Below, one piece after another: positions 5,769 to 22,064 of a DNA stretch of 64,000 nt. The position numbers were made by a program, and so were the translations under genes. Location of the stretch: contig JANYEA010000153.1 of NCBI GenBank assembly GCA_025363385.1, positions 1 through 64,000 on the forward strand, read 5' to 3'. A model generated the notes under the pieces. It saw only the letters and a list, made by a program, of their open reading frames with translations, was not told where the DNA came from and searched no databases. This DNA comes from Bacteroidota bacterium (GTDB lineage: Bacteria > Bacteroidota > Bacteroidia > Chitinophagales > Chitinophagaceae). How positions within the stretch are numbered: position 1 is the first letter of the stretch; every line of letters starts with the position of its first letter.

Positions 5769-7475
5769 TCATCTTTTTTTTGCTTCATTAATTGCGTGAT
5801 CCACCGCCCTAGCCGTAATTGCCATATAGGTAAGAGAAGGATTTTGTGTAGAAGTGGAGGTCATACAAGCTCCATCGGTTACATACACATTTTTACACTG
5901 GTGTAACTGATTAAACTCATTTAATAAAGAGGTTTTAGGGTCCTTACCCATTCTCACCCCCCCCATTTCATGAATATCCAATCCAGGGGCTGCTTTAGAA
6001 TCAGAAGTGCTGATATTTTTAAAACCTGCCTTCGTATACATTTCGGTCATTTGTTCTAAAAAGTCCTTCACCATTTTTTCATCATTATCATCATAATCAA
6101 CCTGAATATTCAATTGTGGTATACCCCAGGGGTCTTTTAAACTTGGATCTAGGCTTACATGGCTTGCTTCTTTAGGAATAGTTTCACCCATCATGTGCGA
6201 ACCTACATGCCATGGGCCTAAGTCCTTTTTAGCAAGTTGATCCTTCAATTCTTTACCAAAACCCTCTGTATTTCTCTTAATATAACGACCCGACGAAAAT
6301 CCTGCCGCATATCCTCTTAAGAAATCCGTCTCCTGTTTCTCTACATTTCTGAATCGAGGCAAATAAGCACTTGTGGGTGATCTTCCATCTGTAGTAGAAT
6401 CCATAAATCCTTCATACTCTGCGTTGATTCTTGCACGATAATTATGAAATGCAATAAACTTACCTAATAATCCAGTATCGTTTCCTAATCCATTGGGGAA
6501 TCGATTTGAAGTAGAATTTAGAAGTAACAGATTGGTATTAATTGCCCCGGCATTCACAAAGATCACTTTGGCATAATATTCTACCATTTCCTTAGTTTGG
6601 CTATCTACCACACGAACACCCGTTGCACTTCCTGCCTTCTCGTCGTAAATAATGGAATGCACCACAGAAAAAGGGCGAAGTGTTAAATTGCCCGTCTTTG
6701 CAGCCCAAGGAATAGTTGAAGAATTGCTACTAAAATATCCTCCAAATGGACATCCTCTTTGGCACAAATTTCTATTCTGGCATTGCCCCCTACCTTGCTC
6801 TACATGAATTGGATTGGGTTTCGTTAAATGGGCACATCTCCCATATATTAAATGACGTCCAGAATAATTTTTTTGGAGTACTTCTTTAAAATAATGATCT
6901 ACACAAGTAAGTTCTAAAGCCGGTAGGAACTCTCCATCTGGCAGATGTGCCAATCCATCTTTATTCCCTGAGATCCCTACAAATTTTTCCACATAACTAT
7001 ACCAGGGTGCAAGGTCTTTATACCTGATTGGCCAATCAACAGCAAAACCATCTCTTGCCGGCCCCTCAAAATCAAAATCACTCCAACGTTGGGTTTGTCT
7101 AGCCCACATCAATGATTTACCTCCTACCTGATACCCCCTGATCCAATCAAATGGCTTGCCTTGTATATAGGGATGTTCCTGATCTTTTACAAAAAAATGA
7201 GCCGCATCTTCGCGAAATGCATAACACTTGCTAATAATAGGATTGGCATCTGTGATTTCCAATGGCATTTGTAAATGATGTTCAAATTCCCATGGCATCA
7301 TATTGGTGGTTGGATAATCCTTTAAATGTTCTACATTTCTTCCTCTTTCCAAAACAAGCGTCTTCCAGCCTTTTTCAGTGAATTCTTTTGCTGCCCAGCC
7401 ACCGCTCATTCCAGAGCCAATTACGATGGCATCAAAGCTTCTATTTTTTGCAGAACCATTAGCATTCTCTCCCAT
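5769..7475 (-). CDS. GMC family oxidoreductase
   Basis: 568 aa; FAD-binding DAIVIGSGMSGGWAAKEFTEKGWKTLVLERG; C-terminal NVYVTDGACMTSTSTQNPSLTYMAITARAVDHA; Cys cluster CQNRNLCQRGC. Confidence 0.93.
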   Translation of the reverse strand: MGENANGSAKNRSFDAIVIGSGMSGGWAAKEFTEKGWKTLVLERGRNVEHLKDYPTTNMMPWEFEHHLQMPLEITDANPIISKCYAFREDAAHFFVKDQEHPYIQGKPFDWIRGYQVGGKSLMWARQTQRWSDFDFEGPARDGFAVDWPIRYKDLAPWYSYVEKFVGISGNKDGLAHLPDGEFLPALELTCVDHYFKEVLQKNYSGRHLIYGRCAHLTKPNPIHVEQGRGQCQNRNLCQRGCPFGGYFSSNSSTIPWAAKTGNLTLRPFSVVHSIIYDEKAGSATGVRVVDSQTKEMVEYYAKVIFVNAGAINTNLLLLNSTSNRFPNGLGNDTGLLGKFIAFHNYRARINAEYEGFMDSTTDGRSPTSAYLPRFRNVEKQETDFLRGYAAGFSSGRYIKRNTEGFGKELKDQLAKKDLGPWHVGSHMMGETIPKEASHVSLDPSLKDPWGIPQLNIQVDYDDNDEKMVKDFLEQMTEMYTKAGFKNISTSDSKAAPGLDIHEMGGVRMGKDPKTSLLNEFNQLHQCKNVYVTDGACMTSTSTQNPSLTYMAITARAVDHAINEAKKR

Positions 7476-7500
7476 AAAATATTTTGTATTTTTTAAATGA

Positions 7501-8028
7501 TTAGGCTTTTACACAACCATGAAACCGTCCAGGTATCTGTTCGTAGATCTGTACGTTGGTCATGAAATATTCCGAGCTGGTATAGGCATAAAGTGCAAGG
7601 CCTTTTGCCTTTTGATAAAACACAAAAAGGGTGTCTTTTCTATTATCCCTTAATTCAATAGACTTAATCATTTTTTCGCGCTGTGCAATAGTTGCCCGGT
7701 TGAAAAATTGGCCAGTCTCTTTTTGAGAAAAAAGATTTAATTCATTAATTCCTTTCACTACTTCTTCCTGATCATTCTTCGGAGTACAGTCATCAAGTAT
7801 TTTCCAAGCAAAAAGATCCAGATGCAAACTTGTAGCTCCAGGGGTATCTGTTTCAGGAATAATAGTTGCGAATAAACTAGCAAAAGCAGCTTCCTGATCT
7901 GGGCTAATGTGAAGTTGCTTTAAGGGAATTCCTGATTTTTGTTTATCAAATAAACAGGAAGGGGCGAGTGCTGCGGTTGCAGATACAAACAGTATCTGTT
8001 TCAATAATGATCTGCGGTGAATAATCAT
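7501..8028 (-). CDS. Gluconate 2-dehydrogenase subunit 3 family protein, Tat/lipobox-like N-terminus
   Basis: 175 aa directly upstream of the GMC gene; HRRSLLKQILFVSATAALAPSC; characteristic FASLFATIIPETDTPGATSL. Confidence 0.88.
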   Translation of the reverse strand: MIIHRRSLLKQILFVSATAALAPSCLFDKQKSGIPLKQLHISPDQEAAFASLFATIIPETDTPGATSLHLDLFAWKILDDCTPKNDQEEVVKGINELNLFSQKETGQFFNRATIAQREKMIKSIELRDNRKDTLFVFYQKAKGLALYAYTSSEYFMTNVQIYEQIPGRFHGCVKA

Positions 8029-8977: not shown

Positions 8978-9997
8978 ATGAAAAATGCCATTCCCATTTT
9001 TGTTTTTGTAATTTTCCTTTTATTTAAAAGCATTGCTATTTTAGCTCAGGAGCCATTCAATACAGACATTCGTTTGTCAAATAGTAGCAGAAATCCAGCA
9101 CTTACAGGGATTCAGGTTGATGACTTGAAAATCGGAATTTGTTATCATCACCAAATCAAAACATGTTTAGTTCCATATAGATCTTTACAAATTCAAATAG
9201 AATCTAGATTTAAGAGAAAGGAATCCGAAGATGGTTTTACTGCGGGGGCATTAATCAGATACGATGAAGCAGGAAACAACCAATTAAAAAGAGCACAGTT
9301 TCTTCCAGTGCTAAACTTCCATAAATCATTAAGTGAGATAAAGGTCTCTTACCTGAGTTTTGGTTTTATGACTGGTATTTATAAAACTCAGTTTGATCCT
9401 TTTAACTTGCCAACTATTAAAAATTATCATCCAATTCCCTTTGCCCCTAATGATCCTGTAGCCCAAAAAGTATTAGCAAACAGTAGCAGTTATTTTGATT
9501 TTTCTACCGGGTTTAGTTGGTATTCTGATTTAAATCCTCAAGTTTCTATTAATCTGGGTGCTGCTCTTTTTCACTTCAGTCAAAATGCGTGGAAGCAGGA
9601 ATTTACAATTCCTAAAATACCCCGAGAATGGGTACTCAATAGTAGTATTCAGCTTACAGAAAAATCCTACTCTGTAAAGTTACTCAACGACATCAGAATA
9701 AATAAATATGGAACTACACTATATTCAGCTTTAATTGGGGGCATTCCAATTTGTGAAAATTTATTAAATCAATCTTCTGAAATCCAATTGGGGGCATTTT
9801 ATAATTCAAACAAGGAAATATCACCCGTTCTTTCAATCAGTTGTCCAGGTTTTTTAATATCGGTCAGTTACAATATTTTAATGCAAAATAGAAATAAAAT
9901 ACCTGTATTAGAAAATGCTATTGAATCAAATCTAGTGTTTCATATCAATACGCATAAAAGAAATACTGATTCTGAAAAAATGCGGTGCTACTTTTAA
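8978..9997 (+). CDS. Type IX secretion system PorP/SprF family membrane protein
   Basis: 339 aa with signal peptide; FNTDIRLSNSSRNPALTGI, SSSYFDFSTGFSWYS and beta-strand periodicity typical of PorP/SprF. Confidence 0.75.
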   Translation: MKNAIPIFVFVIFLLFKSIAILAQEPFNTDIRLSNSSRNPALTGIQVDDLKIGICYHHQIKTCLVPYRSLQIQIESRFKRKESEDGFTAGALIRYDEAGNNQLKRAQFLPVLNFHKSLSEIKVSYLSFGFMTGIYKTQFDPFNLPTIKNYHPIPFAPNDPVAQKVLANSSSYFDFSTGFSWYSDLNPQVSINLGAALFHFSQNAWKQEFTIPKIPREWVLNSSIQLTEKSYSVKLLNDIRINKYGTTLYSALIGGIPICENLLNQSSEIQLGAFYNSNKEISPVLSISCPGFLISVSYNILMQNRNKIPVLENAIESNLVFHINTHKRNTDSEKMRCYF

Positions 9998-10019: not shown

Positions 10020-11186
10020 CTATTTCCTTTTAGCTTTTTCCCACAATACTGATTGATTTGAAGAAAGGTACCTTTTTATACCAGCAAAAACTGCATAATT
10101 CATCATGCAGAAATAATAGGGAATAAAAAATAATTTTATTTTAATTGATCTGGATTGCATCATCCAGCCTAAAATAGCAAATCCATAGAATAACACCTGA
10201 CCAGCTAATACTATATAATACTTCACGTCTCCATTTAGAGCGATTACAATATACCAGTTTAACAAAAAACAAAAAATCATTAAAAATGGAGTTATTGTCC
10301 ACCTGAGTATACGGTGACTTAAATATTGAAAGCTCAGAATGGGATGTCTCAATGGATTTAATAATGCAGAAAGCCTTAAAAATGATTGTATCCCACCTGC
10401 CGCAATTCGAATTTTTCTTTTTAATTCTTCTGTTGTATTGGCAGAGGCATTTTCAGTTGCATAAGCATCTGGTTCATATACAATCCGATAACCCTTTTCA
10501 GCAATCAACATAGAAATCATAAAATCGTCTAACAAAGTATCTATAGGTACGGGAATATATAAAGAGGTCTTTACACTAAATAACTCTCCGGCAGCACCCA
10601 CAACAGAAAATAATTCAGAATCCCAAGCTTTTAACTTTGATTCATATTTCCAATAAAAGCCCTCTCCTGCGGTTGCATCTCCACTATCATCAATTTGAAC
10701 CCTTTTTTCACCGGCAACAGCACCCACAGTAGAATCCTGAAAATGTCTACAAATATTCAATAATGCTTTTGTATTTAAGAGTGTATTTGCATCTGTAAAT
10801 ACTACAACATCCGTTTTCACTTCCAGCATTGCCCGATGAACTGCCACAATTTTTCCGGATCTTTCAGACTGATGCATTAATTGAATAGCTCCATATTTAG
10901 AAATAATCTCCGGGGTTTCATCTGTTGATCCATCTGTTATAAAAATATATTGAACCTTTTCTGCAGGATATTCTAAAGCTAGCGTGTTTGTGATTTTTTC
11001 TTCTATACAATAGGCTTCATTATATGCTGCCACAACTAATGTTACAGTAGGAAGATTATAATTATTATTGAAAGTTTTTTTCTTTCGAAAAACGCGTAAA
11101 ATTTTTACTATAATAAATAGAAGAATACCATAACCGATATAGGTATAAAAAATAATAAAAAGACATAACCAGAATATCGTTTGCAT
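10020..11186 (-). CDS. Glycosyltransferase family 2 membrane protein
   Basis: 388 aa; VTLVVAAYNEAYCIEEKI, FTDANTLLN, C-terminal TM helices. Confidence 0.92.
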   Translation of the reverse strand: MQTIFWLCLFIIFYTYIGYGILLFIIVKILRVFRKKKTFNNNYNLPTVTLVVAAYNEAYCIEEKITNTLALEYPAEKVQYIFITDGSTDETPEIISKYGAIQLMHQSERSGKIVAVHRAMLEVKTDVVVFTDANTLLNTKALLNICRHFQDSTVGAVAGEKRVQIDDSGDATAGEGFYWKYESKLKAWDSELFSVVGAAGELFSVKTSLYIPVPIDTLLDDFMISMLIAEKGYRIVYEPDAYATENASANTTEELKRKIRIAAGGIQSFLRLSALLNPLRHPILSFQYLSHRILRWTITPFLMIFCFLLNWYIVIALNGDVKYYIVLAGQVLFYGFAILGWMMQSRSIKIKLFFIPYYFCMMNYAVFAGIKRYLSSNQSVLWEKAKRK

Positions 11187-11190
11187 AAGC

Positions 11191-12105
11191 TTATTTTAAT
11201 TTATATCCTAATGAATTACTATCTACCCTATTAGTAATATTCCACCAAATAGCCCTTAACAGAATTAATATAAAACCGAAATTACCTTCTTTTATATAAT
11301 GTATGATATTTCTAGGTGTTACTAAAAATAAAAAATGAAAAGAAAAAATCAACCTTTGAAAAACATTTGCATTTCTCCTGCTAAAAAGTATTCTATTCCG
11401 ATTCATAAAATATTCTTTCAAGGGGCTTTTCTGACCAACAGAAACCGATTCTTTATGATAGATCAAAGCTTGCATATTTAGCCTGATCTCGAATCCGGCT
11501 TTTTTAATTCTAGCCCCCCAATCCATCTCCTCGTAATACAGAAAATAATTTTCATGCATCAAACCTGCTTTCTCAATCGCCTCTTTTGAAATCATCATTG
11601 CAGCACCATGACCAAACCCTGTATTACCTGTTAAATAATCATACTGACCATTATCTATTTCGAATTGACCAATACACGCATTCCTTGCTGTAAAATAATT
11701 CATTTCTGTATAACCTGCATATTGCAGGGTATCTGGCTGCTGAAAGTATTTGATTTTGGGAGAAACCATTCCTGCTTTAGGATAGTTCTCAAAATCTTGT
11801 ACCAATGTATTAACTAGCCCTTTCGTAAATTCAGTGTCATTATTAACCAAAAAAAATAGGTCCCCCTTTGCCTTGGAAATTCCGAGATTATTGCCTCCAG
11901 CAAATCCAAGATTCACTTCCGACCGATAGAATTGAACAAAAGGGTATTTTATTTTCCAATTAGGAATCGGGTTTATGGTGCTTGCATTATCAACTACAAT
12001 GATCTCATAATTATTGTAATCATTCGTTTGATAGAACGCATTTAAGAATTCATCGGTAACATGGCTATAATTAAAATTGACCGTAATAATGGAAACAAGT
12101 TTCAT
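11191..12105 (-). CDS. Glycosyltransferase family 2
   Basis: 304 aa; VSIITVNFNYSHVTDEFL, FYRSEVNLGFAGGNNLGI, LVNNDTEF (rhamnosyltransferase-like). Confidence 0.92.
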   Translation of the reverse strand: MKLVSIITVNFNYSHVTDEFLNAFYQTNDYNNYEIIVVDNASTINPIPNWKIKYPFVQFYRSEVNLGFAGGNNLGISKAKGDLFFLVNNDTEFTKGLVNTLVQDFENYPKAGMVSPKIKYFQQPDTLQYAGYTEMNYFTARNACIGQFEIDNGQYDYLTGNTGFGHGAAMMISKEAIEKAGLMHENYFLYYEEMDWGARIKKAGFEIRLNMQALIYHKESVSVGQKSPLKEYFMNRNRILFSRRNANVFQRLIFSFHFLFLVTPRNIIHYIKEGNFGFILILLRAIWWNITNRVDSNSLGYKLK

Positions 12106-12113
12106 ATCAATTT

Positions 12114-12959
12114 TTATGTCAATAAATTAGTATCAATCCAGTCTAATACTTTTGAATCAATATTTGTGTCAAATTTCCTTGCGAAAAATTTACCCGAATT
12201 ACTAAGATCATCAATGTCTTGTATCGTTAAAATTTTGGGGCTTGCTCCACCTAAAGTCCAATCAATATACCGAAGATTATTATTCGTTAGTTGATCCTTA
12301 AATTTAGAACTATACAAAATAGAATGAAATAAGATCTCATCACTTCCCCAGGTAAGCGCAAAAAAGCGTTTAACATGGGGGTTTGATTGTAAGTAATGAA
12401 CGATGTATTCAATATGCTCAATTGTAATGGTAAACCATTGCGATCTGCCAACATAAGTTAAATCTTTTGGGGGTGTTCTTTTAGGCAAACAAAAATTCAC
12501 TAAAATTTCTATTAATGTTTTACCGGGGAATGAAAAATCTGTTAAGTGAAATTTTTCTAGTCTAGGGATTGCTTCGTTCCATTCTTTATAAATAGGATAA
12601 AACTCCATAAATGCTTTTCCCTGATTCTTAGTTAAGAAAAGAGACATCGCTTCATTGGTCATTAAAGGATAATCTTGTCCGCTGATTAATGACACATATT
12701 GGTTACTATCAAAATGCGGAAGAATTTCAATGAAGCTATTCACCATACTTTGCACCATACTATAAGCACCCCAACTAACTTTTACCCTATTTTTAATAAA
12801 AACAACATTCGATAAGTTTTGATATTCCTCAAATAAAGAGATATCAATTTTAAGATCGAGGTGAAGAAAAATAGTTGCATTATCTGAGCTTAATCTATTG
12901 ACAAGTCTTCTAAGCTGACTAGTATTGGTATGAATCAATATAAGAAAAACTGAATTCAA
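12114..12959 (-). CDS. GT14-like beta-1,6-N-acetylglucosaminyltransferase (core-2/I-branching family)
   Basis: 281 aa; ILIHTNTSQLRRLVNRLSSDNATIFLHLDLK, VSLISGQDYPL, TWGSDEILFHSIL. Confidence 0.83.
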   Translation of the reverse strand: MNSVFLILIHTNTSQLRRLVNRLSSDNATIFLHLDLKIDISLFEEYQNLSNVVFIKNRVKVSWGAYSMVQSMVNSFIEILPHFDSNQYVSLISGQDYPLMTNEAMSLFLTKNQGKAFMEFYPIYKEWNEAIPRLEKFHLTDFSFPGKTLIEILVNFCLPKRTPPKDLTYVGRSQWFTITIEHIEYIVHYLQSNPHVKRFFALTWGSDEILFHSILYSSKFKDQLTNNNLRYIDWTLGGASPKILTIQDIDDLSNSGKFFARKFDTNIDSKVLDWIDTNLLT

Positions 12960-13026: not shown

Positions 13027-14226
13027 TTATCGTTTTTCAACTTCCCATTTTGAAACCGCTTTATCTATTTCTAACACACAATTTTCCCAAGTATGAGTTG
13101 ATGCAAATTGGCGTCGCTTATTTTTCATGTCAATATTATTGCTCTTCAAACCCTCTTCTATCATGTGCACATAATCTTCTTTCGTTTGAGCCAAATAACA
13201 AAAATCCTTAAAAATATCCATGGCTTCTGTTTTAGTAGCAACTACAGGCTTTCCTACTGCAAGGTATTCATCAATCTTTCTCGGATAGTTGCCAATGGTA
13301 ACTTGATTCACAATTTGCGGATTGATGCATAAATCAAATACATTAATGTAAGCAGGTAGCGAAGAAGCATCTTTTGAACCAAGAAAATATACGTTGCTTA
13401 GTTGATGTAATAATGAAGATTTAAATTGATCGTCTTCAGGACCAACTAATACAATATTCCATTCTGGCCTAGCTGTAGCGATATGATGAAGTATTTCGAT
13501 ATCAAGGCGAATACTTTGTAATGCACCTACGTATCCAATAATAGGAGCTTTAATTGAAATCATATCCAGTGGAACAATATCTTCATCACAATTCGAAAAT
13601 ATTTCAAGTTCGCATCCTTGTCCTACATAGAAAGACTGGCTATTATATTGTCTGCAATAATCAGCCAGATAGGTTGAATTGGCTACACAGATATCTGAGT
13701 CTGCAATTAGTTCTGGTTCTAGTTTAGTACCGTGTAATTTCCAATAGTCGACCGCCAACATAAAATCGCGGGAATAATAAACACTCACTGCTGGTTTTAA
13801 AAAATATTTCAAATGAAAAGAACGAAACATATCGTTATCATTAAATAAAATATAATTTTTGAAGTCAAGTTTCTCAATTGCTTTTAAAATAGCTTTTGCA
13901 AAAAGTCTATTATTTCTTTTATTTATTAATTCAAAAATTCTTTGCGAATTTATCCAATTAATTGACTCTATTACTTCATCGGGAAACAGATTCCACAAAT
14001 TATCCTTTATACTAATCAATCCAGGTTCAGTTCCTCTTACAATAGCAACTCTCTTAAGTATTTTTGGATCTTTTTTGCCACGAAATTTACTAATTCGATC
14101 TAAGGGAGAGTTCACATATAATACACGATTATATTTACTCCATTCTAGGGCTATATTTTTACAATTACTACCAATAGATGTATCCCAGGGCTGCTGACCT
14201 ACAATAATAATATCTCTACCCATCAT
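13027..14226 (-). CDS. Glycosyltransferase (GT4/TuaH-like)
   Basis: ORF to 14271 but the start is probably MMGRDIIIVGQQPWDT near 14226, just after the upstream gene; PIIGYVGALQSIRLDIEIL, KIDEYLAVGKPVVATKTEAM. Confidence 0.88.
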   Translation of the reverse strand: MMGRDIIIVGQQPWDTSIGSNCKNIALEWSKYNRVLYVNSPLDRISKFRGKKDPKILKRVAIVRGTEPGLISIKDNLWNLFPDEVIESINWINSQRIFELINKRNNRLFAKAILKAIEKLDFKNYILFNDNDMFRSFHLKYFLKPAVSVYYSRDFMLAVDYWKLHGTKLEPELIADSDICVANSTYLADYCRQYNSQSFYVGQGCELEIFSNCDEDIVPLDMISIKAPIIGYVGALQSIRLDIEILHHIATARPEWNIVLVGPEDDQFKSSLLHQLSNVYFLGSKDASSLPAYINVFDLCINPQIVNQVTIGNYPRKIDEYLAVGKPVVATKTEAMDIFKDFCYLAQTKEDYVHMIEEGLKSNNIDMKNKRRQFASTHTWENCVLEIDKAVSKWEVEKR

Positions 14227-14230
14227 TTTA

Positions 14231-15742
14231 TTAGCATTTCCCATCGGCCGCAAGGTTTTGCTGCTGATCAATCCTATAAATAGATACCATCAAAGCAACC
14301 GCCAAAAAGAATAATACATTTGATGGATATTGTACAATTGCTTGTTGAGGGAAATTACCAATATTCCAAATGAATACAATTAACACAACTGCTAAAGAAT
14401 AGCTTTTTAATTGCGGATCAATGATTTTAAAATAATTATTGATCCCTGTTTTGAGAATCACAAATATCATCAAACTAAAAAGCAATAATCCAACCCACCC
14501 TAATTCAACAGTAGTTCTTACATAGCCACTATCTGGCTGGAAAGTTCCTAAGAATGAATTTGGCGAAAAACGGGCTCCCCATTCTCCTGTAGCTCCTAAG
14601 CCACCACCGAAGGGATGACTATATACATAGGGCTTAATTTTAGCCTGATTCTCTTCACGTAACTGGTAAGAAGCATCTTGTTTAGGTCTGAAAGCTGTTT
14701 GGAATCGGAGTATATTTTGGTTCGAAGTTGGCATTACTATAAGAAATCCAATAAATAAAAATGCTCCTAAAGTGAACATCAATATTTTTTTATTGAATTT
14801 TAAAATGGCAAAAAGAATTAAGGCAATAGGCAAAAGTGGATTTGCTGCCCTAGTACCTGAAAAAATCATTGCATTTAAAAAGAAAAAAGCCAAAAAGGCT
14901 AAAATTACTTTTTTATATCTTTTCATTGGACCAGTAATCAACGCCATGCATAAAATACTTCCAGTAGCCATATTATAAGCAAAAGTTACAGGGTCTGAAA
15001 ACATGGAAAATTTTCTCCAGTGGCCTGCCAGAAATAAAAGCCCAGCGAGATCGGGATTGGTATCTAGCCAATTTTGCTCAACTGCATCAAACCCAATATA
15101 TTCCTGCTTAAAAGCGTAACAAGCAGCTATAAACGACCAAAAAATCCACCATTTCAGAATTGTTTTAATAAACTTTTTTGTGCGTATATTAAATACAAAA
15201 ATAAAATACATGAGTGTAACTAAGGCTACTGTTCTAACTGTATATAACCATGCTAGTTTCGACGCAGCTGCTGGATTTACCGCTTGCATTAAATTATAGA
15301 GAACCCATATTAATATAAATATGCTAATATTATTATTGAATACCTGCCACTCTTTTTTTTGTTTCATTTGAATGAACAGCCCTAAAATAAATAAAACAAG
15401 CATACCATCCATCAAGGTTCCCAATGGAAAACTTCCAATCAAATATCTTGAAAGCCAAGCCATAATATATGCCAATGTTATATAAACTATTATTCCAAAT
15501 GCAGGGTTCACTAAAATAAAAAATACAAGTAATGGAGTCACTAAAGAAATAATCGTAACAAGCCCAACCATTATACCATATAATGCGGTTGCATACGCTA
15601 ATGCAGTTGACAGTATCACAAATATCAAAAATACTAACCAACCTGAATAATTATCAATTAGCAGTTTTCTCCTCAGAAATTTGCCAATCGATCTTTTAGA
15701 TTGATTATTAGAAGGGTCAATATTTAAAGTAAGATTTTCCAA
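14231..15742 (-). CDS. O-antigen ligase/Wzy polymerase-like multi-TM protein
   Basis: 503 aa, about 10+ TM segments; periplasmic loop SHPFGGGLGATGEWGARFSPNSFLGTFQPDSGYVRTTVELGWVG. Confidence 0.88.
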   Translation of the reverse strand: MENLTLNIDPSNNQSKRSIGKFLRRKLLIDNYSGWLVFLIFVILSTALAYATALYGIMVGLVTIISLVTPLLVFFILVNPAFGIIVYITLAYIMAWLSRYLIGSFPLGTLMDGMLVLFILGLFIQMKQKKEWQVFNNNISIFILIWVLYNLMQAVNPAAASKLAWLYTVRTVALVTLMYFIFVFNIRTKKFIKTILKWWIFWSFIAACYAFKQEYIGFDAVEQNWLDTNPDLAGLLFLAGHWRKFSMFSDPVTFAYNMATGSILCMALITGPMKRYKKVILAFLAFFFLNAMIFSGTRAANPLLPIALILFAILKFNKKILMFTLGAFLFIGFLIVMPTSNQNILRFQTAFRPKQDASYQLREENQAKIKPYVYSHPFGGGLGATGEWGARFSPNSFLGTFQPDSGYVRTTVELGWVGLLLFSLMIFVILKTGINNYFKIIDPQLKSYSLAVVLIVFIWNIGNFPQQAIVQYPSNVLFFLAVALMVSIYRIDQQQNLAADGKC

Positions 15743-15745
15743 AGA

Positions 15746-15886
15746 TTAGGTTAACATTTTAAAAATAATGGCTAACTGAATTATTATTACAAAAGCAATA
15801 GCAACTTTTCTAGTAATCGCTTGAATTCTAGCTTCTGCGAGTTTATCTGATTCTGCTTTTATTTGTTGCCTTGGAATTGTACGCAT
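15746..15886 (-). CDS. 46-aa single-pass membrane microprotein, absent from the supplied ORF track
   Basis: Read on the minus strand: MRTIPRQQIKAESDKLAEARIQAITRKVAIAFVIIIQLAIIFKMLT*. Fills the gap between the GT stop (15892) and the wzy start (15742) with 5- and 3-nt spacers. Confidence 0.72.
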   Translation of the reverse strand: MRTIPRQQIKAESDKLAEARIQAITRKVAIAFVIIIQLAIIFKMLT

Positions 15887-15891
15887 TGCAA

Positions 15892-17076
15892 TTATTTGAG
15901 TTCTTCAATTTTTTTATCATGAAAATGTCGTGTTGCCACAGAAATTTCATTTGCACTTTTCATTTTCATTAAAGATAATACCTGCATATACATGAATTTA
16001 GGTATCCCTCTTAATGAAGCATAAATTCTTTTATCTGCATTCGACAAAATAAGTGCTAAAAGAAATCCTAGTATAAAGAAAAGGAATCCCAAAAACCAAA
16101 TGAATGATTGCATTGGGAAGATGAAAATATCAATTGTCATACAAAAAACAGATAACAATAAAAAAATGAATAAAGGAGGCCTCAAAAGAACTAATCCAAA
16201 TAAGAATTGATTCCAATTAAACTCAATGATTCCTTTCACTGCTATCGTAAACCCAAATTTAAAATACCTGAACCAGGTATTAATCCAACGAGCCCTTTGC
16301 TTAACAAGTTGATCCGACCGTGATGTTTTTTCATCATAAACGATTGCATTTTCAGCAAACGCAATTCGATGACCTCTTATAACAATTTCTTTTTGCAAAA
16401 TTTTATCAAACCCCGCACCCGTAATATCAAGATGTTCTAAGCATTCTTTATACAAAGAAGTGGTAAAAGCCATACCGGAACCATCTAAAGTTGCGGATGA
16501 TCCGGCTTGAAATAAAATTTTACCAGAATAAAAATGATAATAAATATCTCTAGCCGCATCCAAACATGCGATAATAGTATCTAAATTTTTAGCACTTCGC
16601 AAACCTTGAACCGCACTAAATCCATTATCAAAATAAACATTTAATTCATCCAGATATTCAGGTTCTGCTAAATTATCACTATCAATAATGGTTATTCTAT
16701 TATGCGCTCGTTTAAACCTGTTTATTGCATAAAAATGAGAACGGGTATTACTAGATAAGGTAGTTTCAGGTTTTAATATAATAACCCGTTCATCTTCAAA
16801 ACTCAATCCGCTAATATCACAATTATCTGCAACAATATAAATCAGGTATTTTTTGTATTTCAAAAGAAGCAGAGATGAAACAACAGGTATTATTGTATTT
16901 ATCTCTTCGTATGCAGTTATAATAATTGCATAGTCTGCATCTTCTGTTGATTTATTTATTTTCCTTGACTTTGGAACTATTAAATAAATCAAAAAAATCA
17001 ATATGGGGAATACTAAATTATAGCCGATTAAGATTTGAACTATTTGCCATAATAGCATCAAGTTATGAATGTCCAT
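15892..17076 (-). CDS. Glycosyltransferase family 2 (processive/cellulose-synthase-like)
   Basis: 394 aa; YAIIITAYEEINTIIPVVSSL, ITIIDSDNLAEPEYLDEL, QRARWINTWFRYFKFG (QxxRW). Confidence 0.92.
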   Translation of the reverse strand: MDIHNLMLLWQIVQILIGYNLVFPILIFLIYLIVPKSRKINKSTEDADYAIIITAYEEINTIIPVVSSLLLLKYKKYLIYIVADNCDISGLSFEDERVIILKPETTLSSNTRSHFYAINRFKRAHNRITIIDSDNLAEPEYLDELNVYFDNGFSAVQGLRSAKNLDTIIACLDAARDIYYHFYSGKILFQAGSSATLDGSGMAFTTSLYKECLEHLDITGAGFDKILQKEIVIRGHRIAFAENAIVYDEKTSRSDQLVKQRARWINTWFRYFKFGFTIAVKGIIEFNWNQFLFGLVLLRPPLFIFLLLSVFCMTIDIFIFPMQSFIWFLGFLFFILGFLLALILSNADKRIYASLRGIPKFMYMQVLSLMKMKSANEISVATRHFHDKKIEELK

Positions 17077-17108: not shown

Positions 17109-19265
17109 TTAGTTTTTTGTAATCTTACCATTTTCATCTCTATTAAATATCCAGCCAATAAATTTTTCTTTCAATCCTGTTAAATAATCAACACTTTGCT
17201 TTGTTTGAAGTGTAATTTTTCCACCTGATTCAAATACTGTAAGTACTTTCTCAGAAAATAATATCCACTCTTTAGATTTATTAAAGGAGTTTAAACTTTC
17301 AGATTCAATAATTATGATGTCAAAATCTTCTTTTAATTGGTCAAGTTTCAATTCGATATTCTCTGAACTGCTTAATTCCAATAAACTTGCATCAGTTCCC
17401 CTATTACCCATTACTACAATTTCATTTTTAGCCCTGTCGGAATTCAATAATTTTTTACCTGACAAATAATCATCAATAAAAAACTCAGTTTCCGTTTCTT
17501 TTGTGATAACTGGACTTGAAAAATTGCCATCTATCAATAAAACACGCTTTTTTATTTTCAAAAAAGCATAGGCCAAACTCATGGAGAAGAATGATTTACC
17601 CTCACCACTCGTTAAACTATTGATCAATAAAATTTTGGATTTACCCATTTCATTCTCAATCTCAAATCTGCAAGACCGCAACATTTCCCTGAATGCTAGC
17701 ATACTTGCATTTTCTTTAACAGATTCTCCCCATAATGCCTTAAGCTGAATTAAAGAATTCCCCAACAATGGTATTGAACCTAAAACAACCTGATTGGTAC
17801 TATCTGCAAGTTCGCTCGAATTTGAAATTGAATTATCAAAATAAAATACAATGAATAAACCAAGGAGCACTAAAATCAAGCTAACCAAAACAGATACAAT
17901 AACTAATAATATCTTTTTGGAAGCAAGCGCTTGAGAAGGAACACCTACTTCAATTTGTTTTAGTGAAATGGCTAAGCTAGACTCTAAGCTTGATTGATTA
18001 TACCGATTTTGAGCATCCAGGTACTCCCTGCTAGCGATGTCAATAGCACTTTCATAATTTTGAATAGCGGCTTCATGGGGCACTAACACATCATACTGTT
18101 TGTTCAGGCGATTTATTTCATTTGTAAGCGTTGACAAACTGAATTTTGCTAAATCGTAATCTAATTCCAATTTCGCTTTTTGCTGAACAAGGCTTTCTTT
18201 AGAGCTTTGTGGATTCGAAATATATTTATCACTCGCAAGTTGAATTTGAGAGTTGGCTACATTTTTTGCAGAATCGATTTTGTGTTTAATCTTTTCGTCG
18301 TAATTACTCTTAATATATTCATCAGACATATTCAACAAAAACTGCTTTGTGGATGCAATTTGCTGATTAATCGGAACTACAGATGCTTCGAAATATTTTC
18401 TATCTTTTGGATTGAACTTTTCTTCAATATTTTTCAAAGCACCTTCATAAGAAGCAATGTCTTTTTCAGCAGATTGCTTAGTGGTTTGATAATTATTTAA
18501 TTGAGTAAATAAACTCTTAGCCTCTTCACTAGTATTTAGTATCCTATTTCTAACCTTATAAGATTCTAGCTCACCCTTTAAACGTGCCAACTCTGCACCC
18601 TTTTTACTTAAAAGTGTATCTAAAAAATTTACCTTTTTTTGATTATTGTTTTTTATAAAATCAGAATAGTAGGCAATGAATTCTTCATTCGTTGCATTCA
18701 CTACATATGCCGATAAATAAGGATTATCAGAAGTGAAAAACACATCTATATAGTCACTATTATTGGGGCGAAAAATAAGCAGATTCTTTTTAATTTCTTC
18801 ATAGCTATAGCCCATGCTTTTGATAACTTTTATCAAACCTTTTTCGTCTTCATTATAAGGATTTAATGGAGATTTATCGGCATAGTGCTTTTTATATACC
18901 TCAATTGCGTGGGTAATGGCAGATTCATTTAGCTCTTTCAGTAGTTTACTTTTCTTTCTAAAGGGAACTGAATCTGTAAGGTCATGAATCATTAATCGAT
19001 AAGAAACCTGGTCGGAAACTTTTTCAAGTCGCATCATTTCAAGAAGGTTTCCAAACTCAATATTGATTTTATTTTCCTGAAATCCTTCTTTAGAAAGCAC
19101 TTGCTGACTTTGATCAACTAAACCAGTCGACATTCTAGCATGAGATTCATAACTGTCGGCTAAATTTTTAACCAAAAAGAAAGAAACTATTAATGTAACC
19201 ATAGGAACTCCAATGATCAACCATTTTCTTTTGCCTAAAAGCTTAATAAATTTTGCTACTTCCAT
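17109..19265 (-). CDS. Wzc-like polysaccharide chain-length determinant/tyrosine-autokinase-like protein
   Basis: 718 aa; N-terminal Wzz TM, coiled coil, second TM (ILLVIVSVLVSLILVLLGLFIVFYFDN), P-loop SLTSGEGKS; Walker A' and B motifs diverged and no C-terminal Tyr cluster. Confidence 0.88.
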   Translation of the reverse strand: MEVAKFIKLLGKRKWLIIGVPMVTLIVSFFLVKNLADSYESHARMSTGLVDQSQQVLSKEGFQENKINIEFGNLLEMMRLEKVSDQVSYRLMIHDLTDSVPFRKKSKLLKELNESAITHAIEVYKKHYADKSPLNPYNEDEKGLIKVIKSMGYSYEEIKKNLLIFRPNNSDYIDVFFTSDNPYLSAYVVNATNEEFIAYYSDFIKNNNQKKVNFLDTLLSKKGAELARLKGELESYKVRNRILNTSEEAKSLFTQLNNYQTTKQSAEKDIASYEGALKNIEEKFNPKDRKYFEASVVPINQQIASTKQFLLNMSDEYIKSNYDEKIKHKIDSAKNVANSQIQLASDKYISNPQSSKESLVQQKAKLELDYDLAKFSLSTLTNEINRLNKQYDVLVPHEAAIQNYESAIDIASREYLDAQNRYNQSSLESSLAISLKQIEVGVPSQALASKKILLVIVSVLVSLILVLLGLFIVFYFDNSISNSSELADSTNQVVLGSIPLLGNSLIQLKALWGESVKENASMLAFREMLRSCRFEIENEMGKSKILLINSLTSGEGKSFFSMSLAYAFLKIKKRVLLIDGNFSSPVITKETETEFFIDDYLSGKKLLNSDRAKNEIVVMGNRGTDASLLELSSSENIELKLDQLKEDFDIIIIESESLNSFNKSKEWILFSEKVLTVFESGGKITLQTKQSVDYLTGLKEKFIGWIFNRDENGKITKN

Positions 19266-20232: not shown

Positions 20233-20850
20233 ATGTCGCTAAAAGCAGCCATCAAAAGTAACCCTAGAATCAAAAAATTGATCCATTGGATGCTCATTCC
20301 TTCTGGAGAAGCTAGGCCTAGATTTTGGGTAAAGCTTTTTATCAACCCTTTTTTTCATCAAACAGGTAAAGGATCACAAATTAGATGGCATACAAGAATG
20401 GATGTTCTACCCTTTAATAAATTTGTACTTGGTGCGTCTTCTACCATTGAAGATTATTGTACTATCAACAATGGTGTAGGAGATGTTATCATTGGAAATA
20501 ACACTTTAATTGGCATAGGGAATACCATAATAGGGCCAATAACAATTGGGAATAACGTGATCTTTGCCCAAAACATAGTTGCTAGTGCCTTGAACCATGA
20601 ATATCGTGATCCTAATATTCCCATAAGCAAGCAACCCATTAATACTGCAGCAATTACCATTGAAGATGATTGCTGGATCGCAGCAAATTCTGTTATTACA
20701 GCAGGTGTTAGAATTGGCAAACACAGCGTAATTGCAGCAGGCGCAGTTGTAACAAAAGACGTTCCCCCTTTTTCAGTAGTAGTGGGAAACCCCGCCAAAA
20801 TTTTAAAGAAATTCGATTTCGATTCGGGAATCTGGGAGAGGGTTAATTAA
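20233..20850 (+). CDS. Hexapeptide-repeat (LbetaH) acyltransferase
   Basis: 205 aa; repeated [IV]-x4-GDVIIGNNTLIGIGNTIIGPITIGNNVIF…IAANSVITAGVRIGKHSVIAAGAVVTKDVPPFSVVVGNPAKIL. Confidence 0.93.
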   Translation: MSLKAAIKSNPRIKKLIHWMLIPSGEARPRFWVKLFINPFFHQTGKGSQIRWHTRMDVLPFNKFVLGASSTIEDYCTINNGVGDVIIGNNTLIGIGNTIIGPITIGNNVIFAQNIVASALNHEYRDPNIPISKQPINTAAITIEDDCWIAANSVITAGVRIGKHSVIAAGAVVTKDVPPFSVVVGNPAKILKKFDFDSGIWERVN

Positions 20851-22064
20851 ACATTTTCTTTTTGGAAAAGTGCCGGAATTGTTCTTAAAATAAGTATGAT
20901 GTCATTTAAAAAACTATTATTTTTTGCATAGATATTATCTAAAAGAAGACGCTCATTTTCATGCATTTTTCCGGTGCCCCTTTTTTCAACCTGCCATAAT
21001 CCGGTAATTCCCGCAGGCGCTAAAAACCGAAGTGCATATTTATCAGTAGTTAATTTTTCAGCTTCATACAAGGGTAAAGGCCTGTTACCTACAATACTCA
21101 TATCTCCAATTAAAACATTCCAAAGCTGAGGCAATTCATCAATACTGCTTCTTCTGATTAATTTACCTACTCTTGTCATACGGGGATCATCTTTAATTTT
21201 AATAAATGTGGAATCCCGATTATGAATTTTCTGCTCCATATATTCTTTCTCACACATCTGAACCGTATCTGAATAAATAGGAAATTGACAGTCTTCTCCC
21301 ATTGATTTGCAATCTTCACAAAGAAACTCGCAATATGGCTCCCCATCTATTTCTTGTTGATGATGCTTGCTTTTTGTATACTGATTAAGGTGTTTCAGAT
21401 CCTTTAACTTTTTATCAGAATCTAAAAACATAGATCGAAACTTATAAAATTTAAAAATATGATAACCCCTTCCTACTCTAAAAGAATAATAAAATACTGG
21501 GCCCTTTGATTCCAAACGAACTAAAAAGCCTACTACAATAAAAATGGGCGCTAATATTATCAGTGAAGTGCCAGATACAATAATATCAAAAAGACGCTTT
21601 ACAAATGGCGTCCGATATTTTACTGTTTCGTCATCATTTATCCTCTTGGACTTATGAATTTCCACCCAATTTTCAATAATAAAGTTGAACCTTAATTCGA
21701 AATTTTCAATCTTAAAAGGTGTATGGAATATTTCAGCAACTCCAGCCTGGAGTGCGATTTTCATAATTTTATCATTCCAATGCTTACAAATGATTATGAA
21801 AGGTATGTGTAGGTTTTTTTTATTTTTTAATACCTCTAATAATGAAACCCCAGATGGCGACATAACTTCACTCTGACTAATCACAGCTAATACATTCCAT
21901 TCATTTTGATTCCAATGCTCTAATAAATCAATCCCATTTTTGAAAGAGATCAGTTTAGCATCCTTTAAATAACTTTGAGAAAGCATTTGCTCTACTTCTG
22001 CATTGCAATTAACCAATGCAACAACTGACAATTTGGATGGAACTGAATATGAAAGATCTGTCAT
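20847..22064 (-). CDS. Priming sugar transferase (polyprenyl glycosylphosphotransferase) with N-terminal degenerate receiver-like domain and Cys-rich insertion
   Basis: C-terminal KRLFDIIVSGTSLIILAPIFIVVG, FYKFRSM, RSSIDELPQLWNVLIGDMSIVGNRPLP; N-terminal about 130 aa resemble a receiver fold; insertion CEFLCEDCKSMGEDCQFPIYSDTVQMC. Confidence 0.9.
   Translation of the reverse strand: MTDLSYSVPSKLSVVALVNCNAEVEQMLSQSYLKDAKLISFKNGIDLLEHWNQNEWNVLAVISQSEVMSPSGVSLLEVLKNKKNLHIPFIIICKHWNDKIMKIALQAGVAEIFHTPFKIENFELRFNFIIENWVEIHKSKRINDDETVKYRTPFVKRLFDIIVSGTSLIILAPIFIVVGFLVRLESKGPVFYYSFRVGRGYHIFKFYKFRSMFLDSDKKLKDLKHLNQYTKSKHHQQEIDGEPYCEFLCEDCKSMGEDCQFPIYSDTVQMCEKEYMEQKIHNRDSTFIKIKDDPRMTRVGKLIRRSSIDELPQLWNVLIGDMSIVGNRPLPLYEAEKLTTDKYALRFLAPAGITGLWQVEKRGTGKMHENERLLLDNIYAKNNSFLNDIILILRTIPALFQKENV

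Follow-up and report, generated by a model that had tools for sequence, protein, structure and literature searches.

Wzy polymerases are difficult to express and assay. The closest described systems are the SEDS polymerases RodA and FtsW, which require PBP2 and FtsI, respectively (PMC10449877, PMC8078798). The isolated transmembrane (TM) helix of PBP2 stimulates RodA (PMC10449877), and the TM segment of FtsI is seemingly enough for FtsW activity in vitro (PMC8078798). PMC10920833 groups the SEDS enzymes (GT119) and the ligases (GT121) into a single clan that also includes several families of Wzy and keeps its conserved residues on the outer face of the membrane; for the BP-Pol class, it cites only one member that has been characterized experimentally. 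No small subunit of WaaL or Wzy enzymes was mentioned in the literature searched, nor was one found by a term search of PMC10920833. We propose that one clade of Wzy enzymes (Wzy_C, WaaL/RodA-like) from Bacteroidota and a neighbouring class has such a partner, a small single-pass inner-membrane subunit that is dedicated to the clade and probably obligate. We put the probability of this reading at about two in three.

The window, i.e., the whole 64,000-nucleotide stretch of DNA analysed (contig JANYEA010000153.1 of a Chitinophagaceae bacterium), contains a minus-strand operon. It encodes a Wzy-type polymerase of the O-antigen ligase family (Pfam Wzy_C, PF04932; 14231..15742, 503 aa, TTG start), whose match to Wzy_C scored 41.4 bits (cut-off 31.7), and, upstream, a GT2 glycosyltransferase (Glyco_tranf_2_3; 15892..17076). 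The operon also contains genes for a Wzc-like chain-length determinant/tyrosine autokinase (17109..19265, 718 aa), an outer-membrane efflux-type protein (OEP, PF02321; 19265..19990, 241 aa), a GT1-family glycosyltransferase downstream of the Wzy gene and overlapping its end (13027..14271; its TuaH-like match was below the curated cut-off), a Branch (Core-2/I-branching) glycosyltransferase (12114-12959), two more GT2 glycosyltransferases (11191-12105 and 10020-11186), and a polyprenyl-phosphate sugar-1-phosphate transferase (Bac_transf; 20847..22064), which presumably initiates the pathway. Based on this set of genes, the operon is a polysaccharide export locus of the Wzy type. As to whether the predicted activity of the Wzy_C protein is that of a polymerase, which would join repeat units, or of a ligase, which would transfer them to lipid A-core, the operon context (the Wzc-like protein, OEP, and several glycosyltransferases) suggests a polymerase. 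Beside the operon, the window encodes a pair consisting of a GMC oxidoreductase and gluconate 2-dehydrogenase subunit 3, and a PorP/SprF (type IX secretion) protein (coordinates 5769-8028 and 8978-9997).

The space between the upstream GT2 gene and wzy is filled by a small gene on the minus strand (15746..15886), with the ATG at 15886-15884, 46 codons (15886-15749), and TAA at 15748-15746. The GT2 stop ends at 15892 and is followed by 5 nt (15887-15891) and the ATG; the TAA is followed by 3 nt (15743-15745) and the TTG start of Wzy at 15742. The microprotein and Wzy ORFs share a frame, with TAA and one further codon between them. These coordinates agree with the initial annotation, which had described an ATG-to-TAA ORF with 5-nt and 3-nt junctions in this gap, and the 46-aa product, MRTIPRQQIKAESDKLAEARIQAITRKVAIAFVIIIQLAIIFKMLT, has the charged N-terminus (with an MRTxP motif) and the single TM helix noted there. 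It ends with F-K-M-L-T. Relatives' loci were collected with a Wzy query, which yielded three Chitinophagaceae/Bacteroidetes MAG loci, and with a GT2 query, which yielded same-genus genomes. Conservation and dN/dS, the check suggested in the initial annotation, bore the ORF out: a 46-codon ORF was kept in frame between the same gene pair in five relatives (L001, L002, L003, L005, and L006), and of the 15 pairs formed by the six closest sequences, 12 had a finite dN/dS, of 0.10-0.60 and mostly 0.1-0.4, while dS was saturated in the remaining three. Over all pairs of this six-sequence group, differences at codon positions 1, 2, and 3 numbered 240, 139, and 334, and amino-acid similarity was 8.6 s.d. 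above that of column shuffles. Other groups gave dN/dS values of 0.03-0.27. Judged by these sequence comparisons, the ORF is a genuine protein-coding gene under purifying selection. A divergent 49-codon version, with a probable TTG start and a TAATG overlap with wzy, was found at L012/L013. In the draft genome G038 (L005), wzy is frameshifted soon after its start, probably due to an assembly error or because the gene is broken.

The initial annotation concerned one ORF, and this scope was too narrow, for the microprotein belongs to a family that spans at least two classes. Its members are 29-60 aa long (median 42 aa for 116 members), with one C-terminal TM helix and a C-terminal F-x-K-x-x-F-[FL] motif. 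In 104 of the 116 members, this Lys occupies exactly the fifth position from the C-terminus, and Phe is favoured around it (78% at -2, 83% at +3). In the window member, which ends with K-M-L-T and is without the F-[FL] ending of most members, the corresponding residue is K43, the fourth from the end. Within the taxonomic family, a profile made from eight microproteins had matches in 31 of 299 genomes (17 genera), and almost all of these matches are immediately 5' of the Wzy gene. Order-wide, an ORF of 31-55 aa with a single TM helix and a terminal K-x-x-F-[FL] is present immediately 5' of Wzy even at loci missed by the profile, and a strict pattern (an upstream hydrophobic small ORF with the terminal K-motif) was found at 77 of the 90 Wzy loci from this order versus 0 of 73 non-wzy control genes. 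Distant members were recognised by position and motif, not by E-values, and the genomes surveyed include drafts. Profile matches within long ORFs (L062, L269-L275) were dismissed as chance TM matches. No Pfam family matched the microprotein; NCBIfam gave one chance-level match, in one of 31 members, and otherwise none; and the best match among PDB sequences had an E-value of 0.28. As far as these sequence libraries go, the family is new to all three. An unannotated 34-aa member, MSDNKFSNDRILEITVTTFSVFIILLLFLKIIFF, is encoded on plasmid CP139022.1 of Flammeovirgaceae bacterium SG7u.111 (L248, about 2870-2970), immediately 5' of O-antigen ligase WPO38835.1. Two divergent microproteins of family f15 (L106 and L116) end with FLWIV(L/W)LA, Trp replacing the conserved Lys region; they are natural variants in which the role of the Lys could be probed.

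Wzy loci from class- and phylum-wide searches were scanned upstream for the microprotein, and the Wzy sequences were used to build trees with FastTree, including a further tree without other-class rows; the trees show one clean split. In the tree of 179 Wzys, a single branch with a support of 99 has 125 Wzys on one side, the clade, and 54 on the other. Each of the 125 comes from a genome with a microprotein gene, which is most often located immediately 5' of wzy; none of the 54 adjoins a microprotein gene. Among rows selected by Wzy, which are free of microprotein bias (five profile-chosen loci also recovered by Wzy searches were counted, and the remaining 19 were left out), the microprotein is adjacent in 95 of 101 cases, and the other six genomes carry it elsewhere. 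The only row inside the clade scored as lacking an upstream microprotein (L229) is the tandem twin of a microprotein-bearing Wzy (L244) located 0.5 kb away. Genome-wide profile scans revealed no small-ORF match in the 40 genomes whose only Wzys are outside the clade, nor in 20 genomes that lack a strong Wzy match. As a positive control, 21 of 30 microprotein-positive genomes were detected, all beside wzy; the profile thus misses about one-third of positives, and the negative scans are strong, not absolute. The closest Wzys outside the clade (L233-L235, from another class) have no microprotein adjacent, and scans of their genomes were likewise empty. The genome of the window itself offers a contrast: a second Wzy_C gene on the same contig, outside the window (G000:C8:79284-80633; L100), is of the microprotein-less clade and is not preceded by a microprotein gene. 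By this distribution, the microprotein was gained once, together with the Wzy clade, with no loss seen. Since the microprotein accompanies the Wzy branch in every examined genome of that branch, a dedicated helper subunit is probable.

The microprotein stop and the Wzy start overlap or are 20 nt or less apart in 93 of 116 loci, and in 37 of 116 loci Wzy has a non-ATG start (TTG or GTG) right at the microprotein stop. Because such starts are frequent, the Wzy starts of the clade are likely misannotated in some genomes. Linkage is not universal. In at least three genomes, the microprotein gene is unlinked to wzy: it is 72 kb away in G556 (L260), on a different, large contig in G568 (L261), and unlinked in G350 (L246), a genome chosen by its microprotein. 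In a further genome, G453 (L258), the microprotein is on another contig and near a contig end, so the linkage is ambiguous. One gene separates the microprotein from wzy in G652 and G948, and in G100 (L088/L259), which has two wzys in tandem, one microprotein is located ahead of the first. Other tandem wzys have one microprotein 5' of both (G1125; L244/L229) or between the two (G477; L096). The unlinked microproteins of G556 and G568 each adjoin a long ORF, similar in sequence in both genomes and perhaps a glycosyltransferase. The 5' neighbours vary, and include methyltransferase-, acetyltransferase-, and sulfotransferase-like genes and flippases (assigned by eye, except for one flippase that Pfam confirmed). 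A methyltransferase-like gene, apparently of the FkbM type as judged by eye, follows GT2 and precedes the microprotein-Wzy pair in several relatives (L073, L076-L084), same-genus genomes among them. An apparent rule that GT2 loci without wzy have no microprotein was rejected as an artefact of 1.5-kb flanks: at least in G017, such a methyltransferase-like gene separates GT2 from the microprotein-Wzy pair.

AlphaFold2 modelling of the Wzy partner alone (503 aa) gave a pLDDT of 91.4 and a pTM of 0.88. A read-through fusion of the microprotein and Wzy (551 aa, TAA read as G), modelled with paired rows from the window and 25 other loci with TAA alone between the frames, gave a mean pLDDT of 89.7 and a pTM of 0.87. 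In the fusion model, the microprotein is a single helix from residue 5 to residue 46, with a pLDDT of about 95-97, and the linker (49-81) is disordered. The small pTM drop corresponds to a contribution of about 0.7-0.9 per microprotein residue, a value that comes from arithmetic on rounded numbers, not from PAE, and assumes an unchanged contribution of the Wzy core. The drop would be easier to explain if the microprotein helix were confidently placed. In Foldseek searches with both models, the best match was WaaL 7tpg_B (E about 1e-5; for the Wzy model, E 1.1e-5 and TM 0.63 by target), followed by RodA-PBP2 and FtsWIQLB; the predicted fold of the Wzy partner is therefore WaaL/RodA-like. A PDB sequence-profile search with Wzy produced only spurious aquaporin matches, and the fold search was used instead. 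Residues R243, R298, R346, R362, H376, and E413 of the Wzy partner are invariant or nearly so; in a GT-C1 polymerase, conserved Arg residues and a His or acid that activates the acceptor would be expected on the outer face. Mutual information between the microprotein and Wzy was 0.26 versus 0.16 or less in within-family shuffles, an excess that subfamily structure (phylogeny) explains equally well.

According to the positive-inside rule, the basic N-terminus of the microprotein would be in the cytoplasm. Its TM helix may pack against Wzy within the membrane, which would leave the -F-x-K-x-x-F-[FL] tail on the periplasmic side, the site of conserved catalytic residues in clan GT-C1. Packing could stabilise Wzy or hold it in an active state, in the way that the TM helices of PBP2 and FtsI act on RodA and FtsW, and the near-overlapping stop and start codons would let both proteins be made together. 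The precedent of SEDS helix partners and the common clan of SEDS enzymes, ligases, and Wzy families lead us to propose the microprotein as the minimal helix partner of this clade. The related microprotein-less Wzy clade has a similar TM profile and works without the microprotein; the Wzy fold thus does not depend on it intrinsically. A bolder version, which we regard as tentative and rather doubtful, is that the enzyme of this clade is a two-component Wzy, whose second part of 30-50 aa would complete or gate the periplasmic undecaprenyl-diphosphate site with its Lys/Phe tail, as a minimal counterpart of the large bPBPs of SEDS enzymes.

The alternative that we take most seriously, while considering it unlikely, is that the microprotein serves the pathway and not Wzy itself, as a small adaptor that connects Wzy with the export complex (Wzc-like protein and OEP) or with a flippase, or as a Wzz-like chain-length modulator, and that it tracks the Wzy clade because this clade defines the type of pathway. 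Co-occurrence would also fit a partner of the pathway branch, as direct and indirect partners are inseparable by co-occurrence alone, and a Wzc-like autokinase and OEP are indeed encoded upstream in the window operon. However, upstream neighbours are highly variable among loci while adjacency to Wzy is kept. The same variability bears on the upstream GT2 glycosyltransferase as the partner: GT2 adjoins the microprotein in the window, as it does in many members of the same family, but a GT2 orthologue is within 1.5 kb in only 34 of 110 microprotein loci, and the microprotein stays with Wzy where a methyltransferase-like gene intervenes. By linkage, Wzy appears to be the partner, and a GT2 subunit is disfavoured to the point of being highly improbable; GT2 is a neighbour, not a phylogenetic partner. 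The suggestion of the initial annotation, a real accessory subunit of the polymerase or synthase, therefore stands as regards a real protein (conservation) and a link to Wzy (phylogeny and co-occurrence) and falls as regards the synthase, while a physical subunit is what we infer.

We think it very unlikely that the ORF is a translational-coupling leader, a cis element that opens the Wzy start or allows re-initiation there and whose peptide is incidental. The tight junctions and non-ATG Wzy starts would suit such a leader, but the amino-acid sequence and the Lys are conserved, and polysaccharide operons of sister-clade Wzys are equally tight without a microprotein. Where the gene is unlinked to wzy or one gene away, coupling is impossible, and the unlinked copies exclude a purely cis translational role in the genomes concerned. 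Hardly credible, in turn, is a split Wzy whose detached first TM helix is the microprotein, perhaps joined by stop-codon read-through. The shared frame in the window, with TAA and one codon in between, invites this idea; across 114 loci, however, the frame is the same as that of Wzy in 45 and different in 69, and the microprotein is thus not a read-through domain. In addition, the two ORFs have separate start codons, unlinked copies exist, sister-clade Wzys have no additional N-terminal helix, and a natural microprotein-Wzy fusion was not found. To the idea that the ORF arose by chance in the short space between two genes we give virtually no credence: its length is under the usual ORF cut-offs, but the frame is conserved across many genera, and dN/dS, the K-motif control, and the Wzy-clade split all speak against chance.

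A dedicated subunit of the Wzy clade thus remains our preferred reading. If the whole clade does need an unannotated microprotein, annotation-based heterologous expression and gene-cluster transfers omit a required part; gene finders miss the 46-aa protein, which was below the 60-aa cut-off of the ORF track behind the initial annotation. SEDS, ligase, and Wzy enzymes would also be unified as GT-C polymerases able to depend on a partner TM helix.

CydX of cytochrome bd and KdpF are proteins of less than 60 aa that span the membrane once; their genes adjoin that of the large subunit and easily escape annotation. The microprotein resembles them in size, single TM helix, and gene position, while the enzyme class is different; sequence similarity was covered by the library scans. 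The 503-aa neighbour shares the Wzy_C family with the WaaL O-antigen ligase (PDB 7tpg; CAZy GT121, clan GT-C1; PMC10920833), and its model matches 7tpg_B. In contrast to WaaL and Wzy enzymes as described in the literature searched, where no small subunit is mentioned, the present clade has a microprotein throughout. The nearest functional parallel is the TM helix of PBP2 or FtsI on RodA or FtsW (PDB 8tj3, 6pl5/6pl6, 8p1u, and 8bh1), a single-TM partner, like the one proposed here, of a polytopic, Und-PP-dependent GT-C polymerase whose fold is related according to Foldseek. No sequence relationship to PBP2 or FtsI was found, and the likeness would be one of proposed working mode, including a putative contact. 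While PBP2 and FtsI have large periplasmic transpeptidase and pedestal domains, the microprotein is without them and ends four to five residues past the conserved Lys, almost at the membrane.
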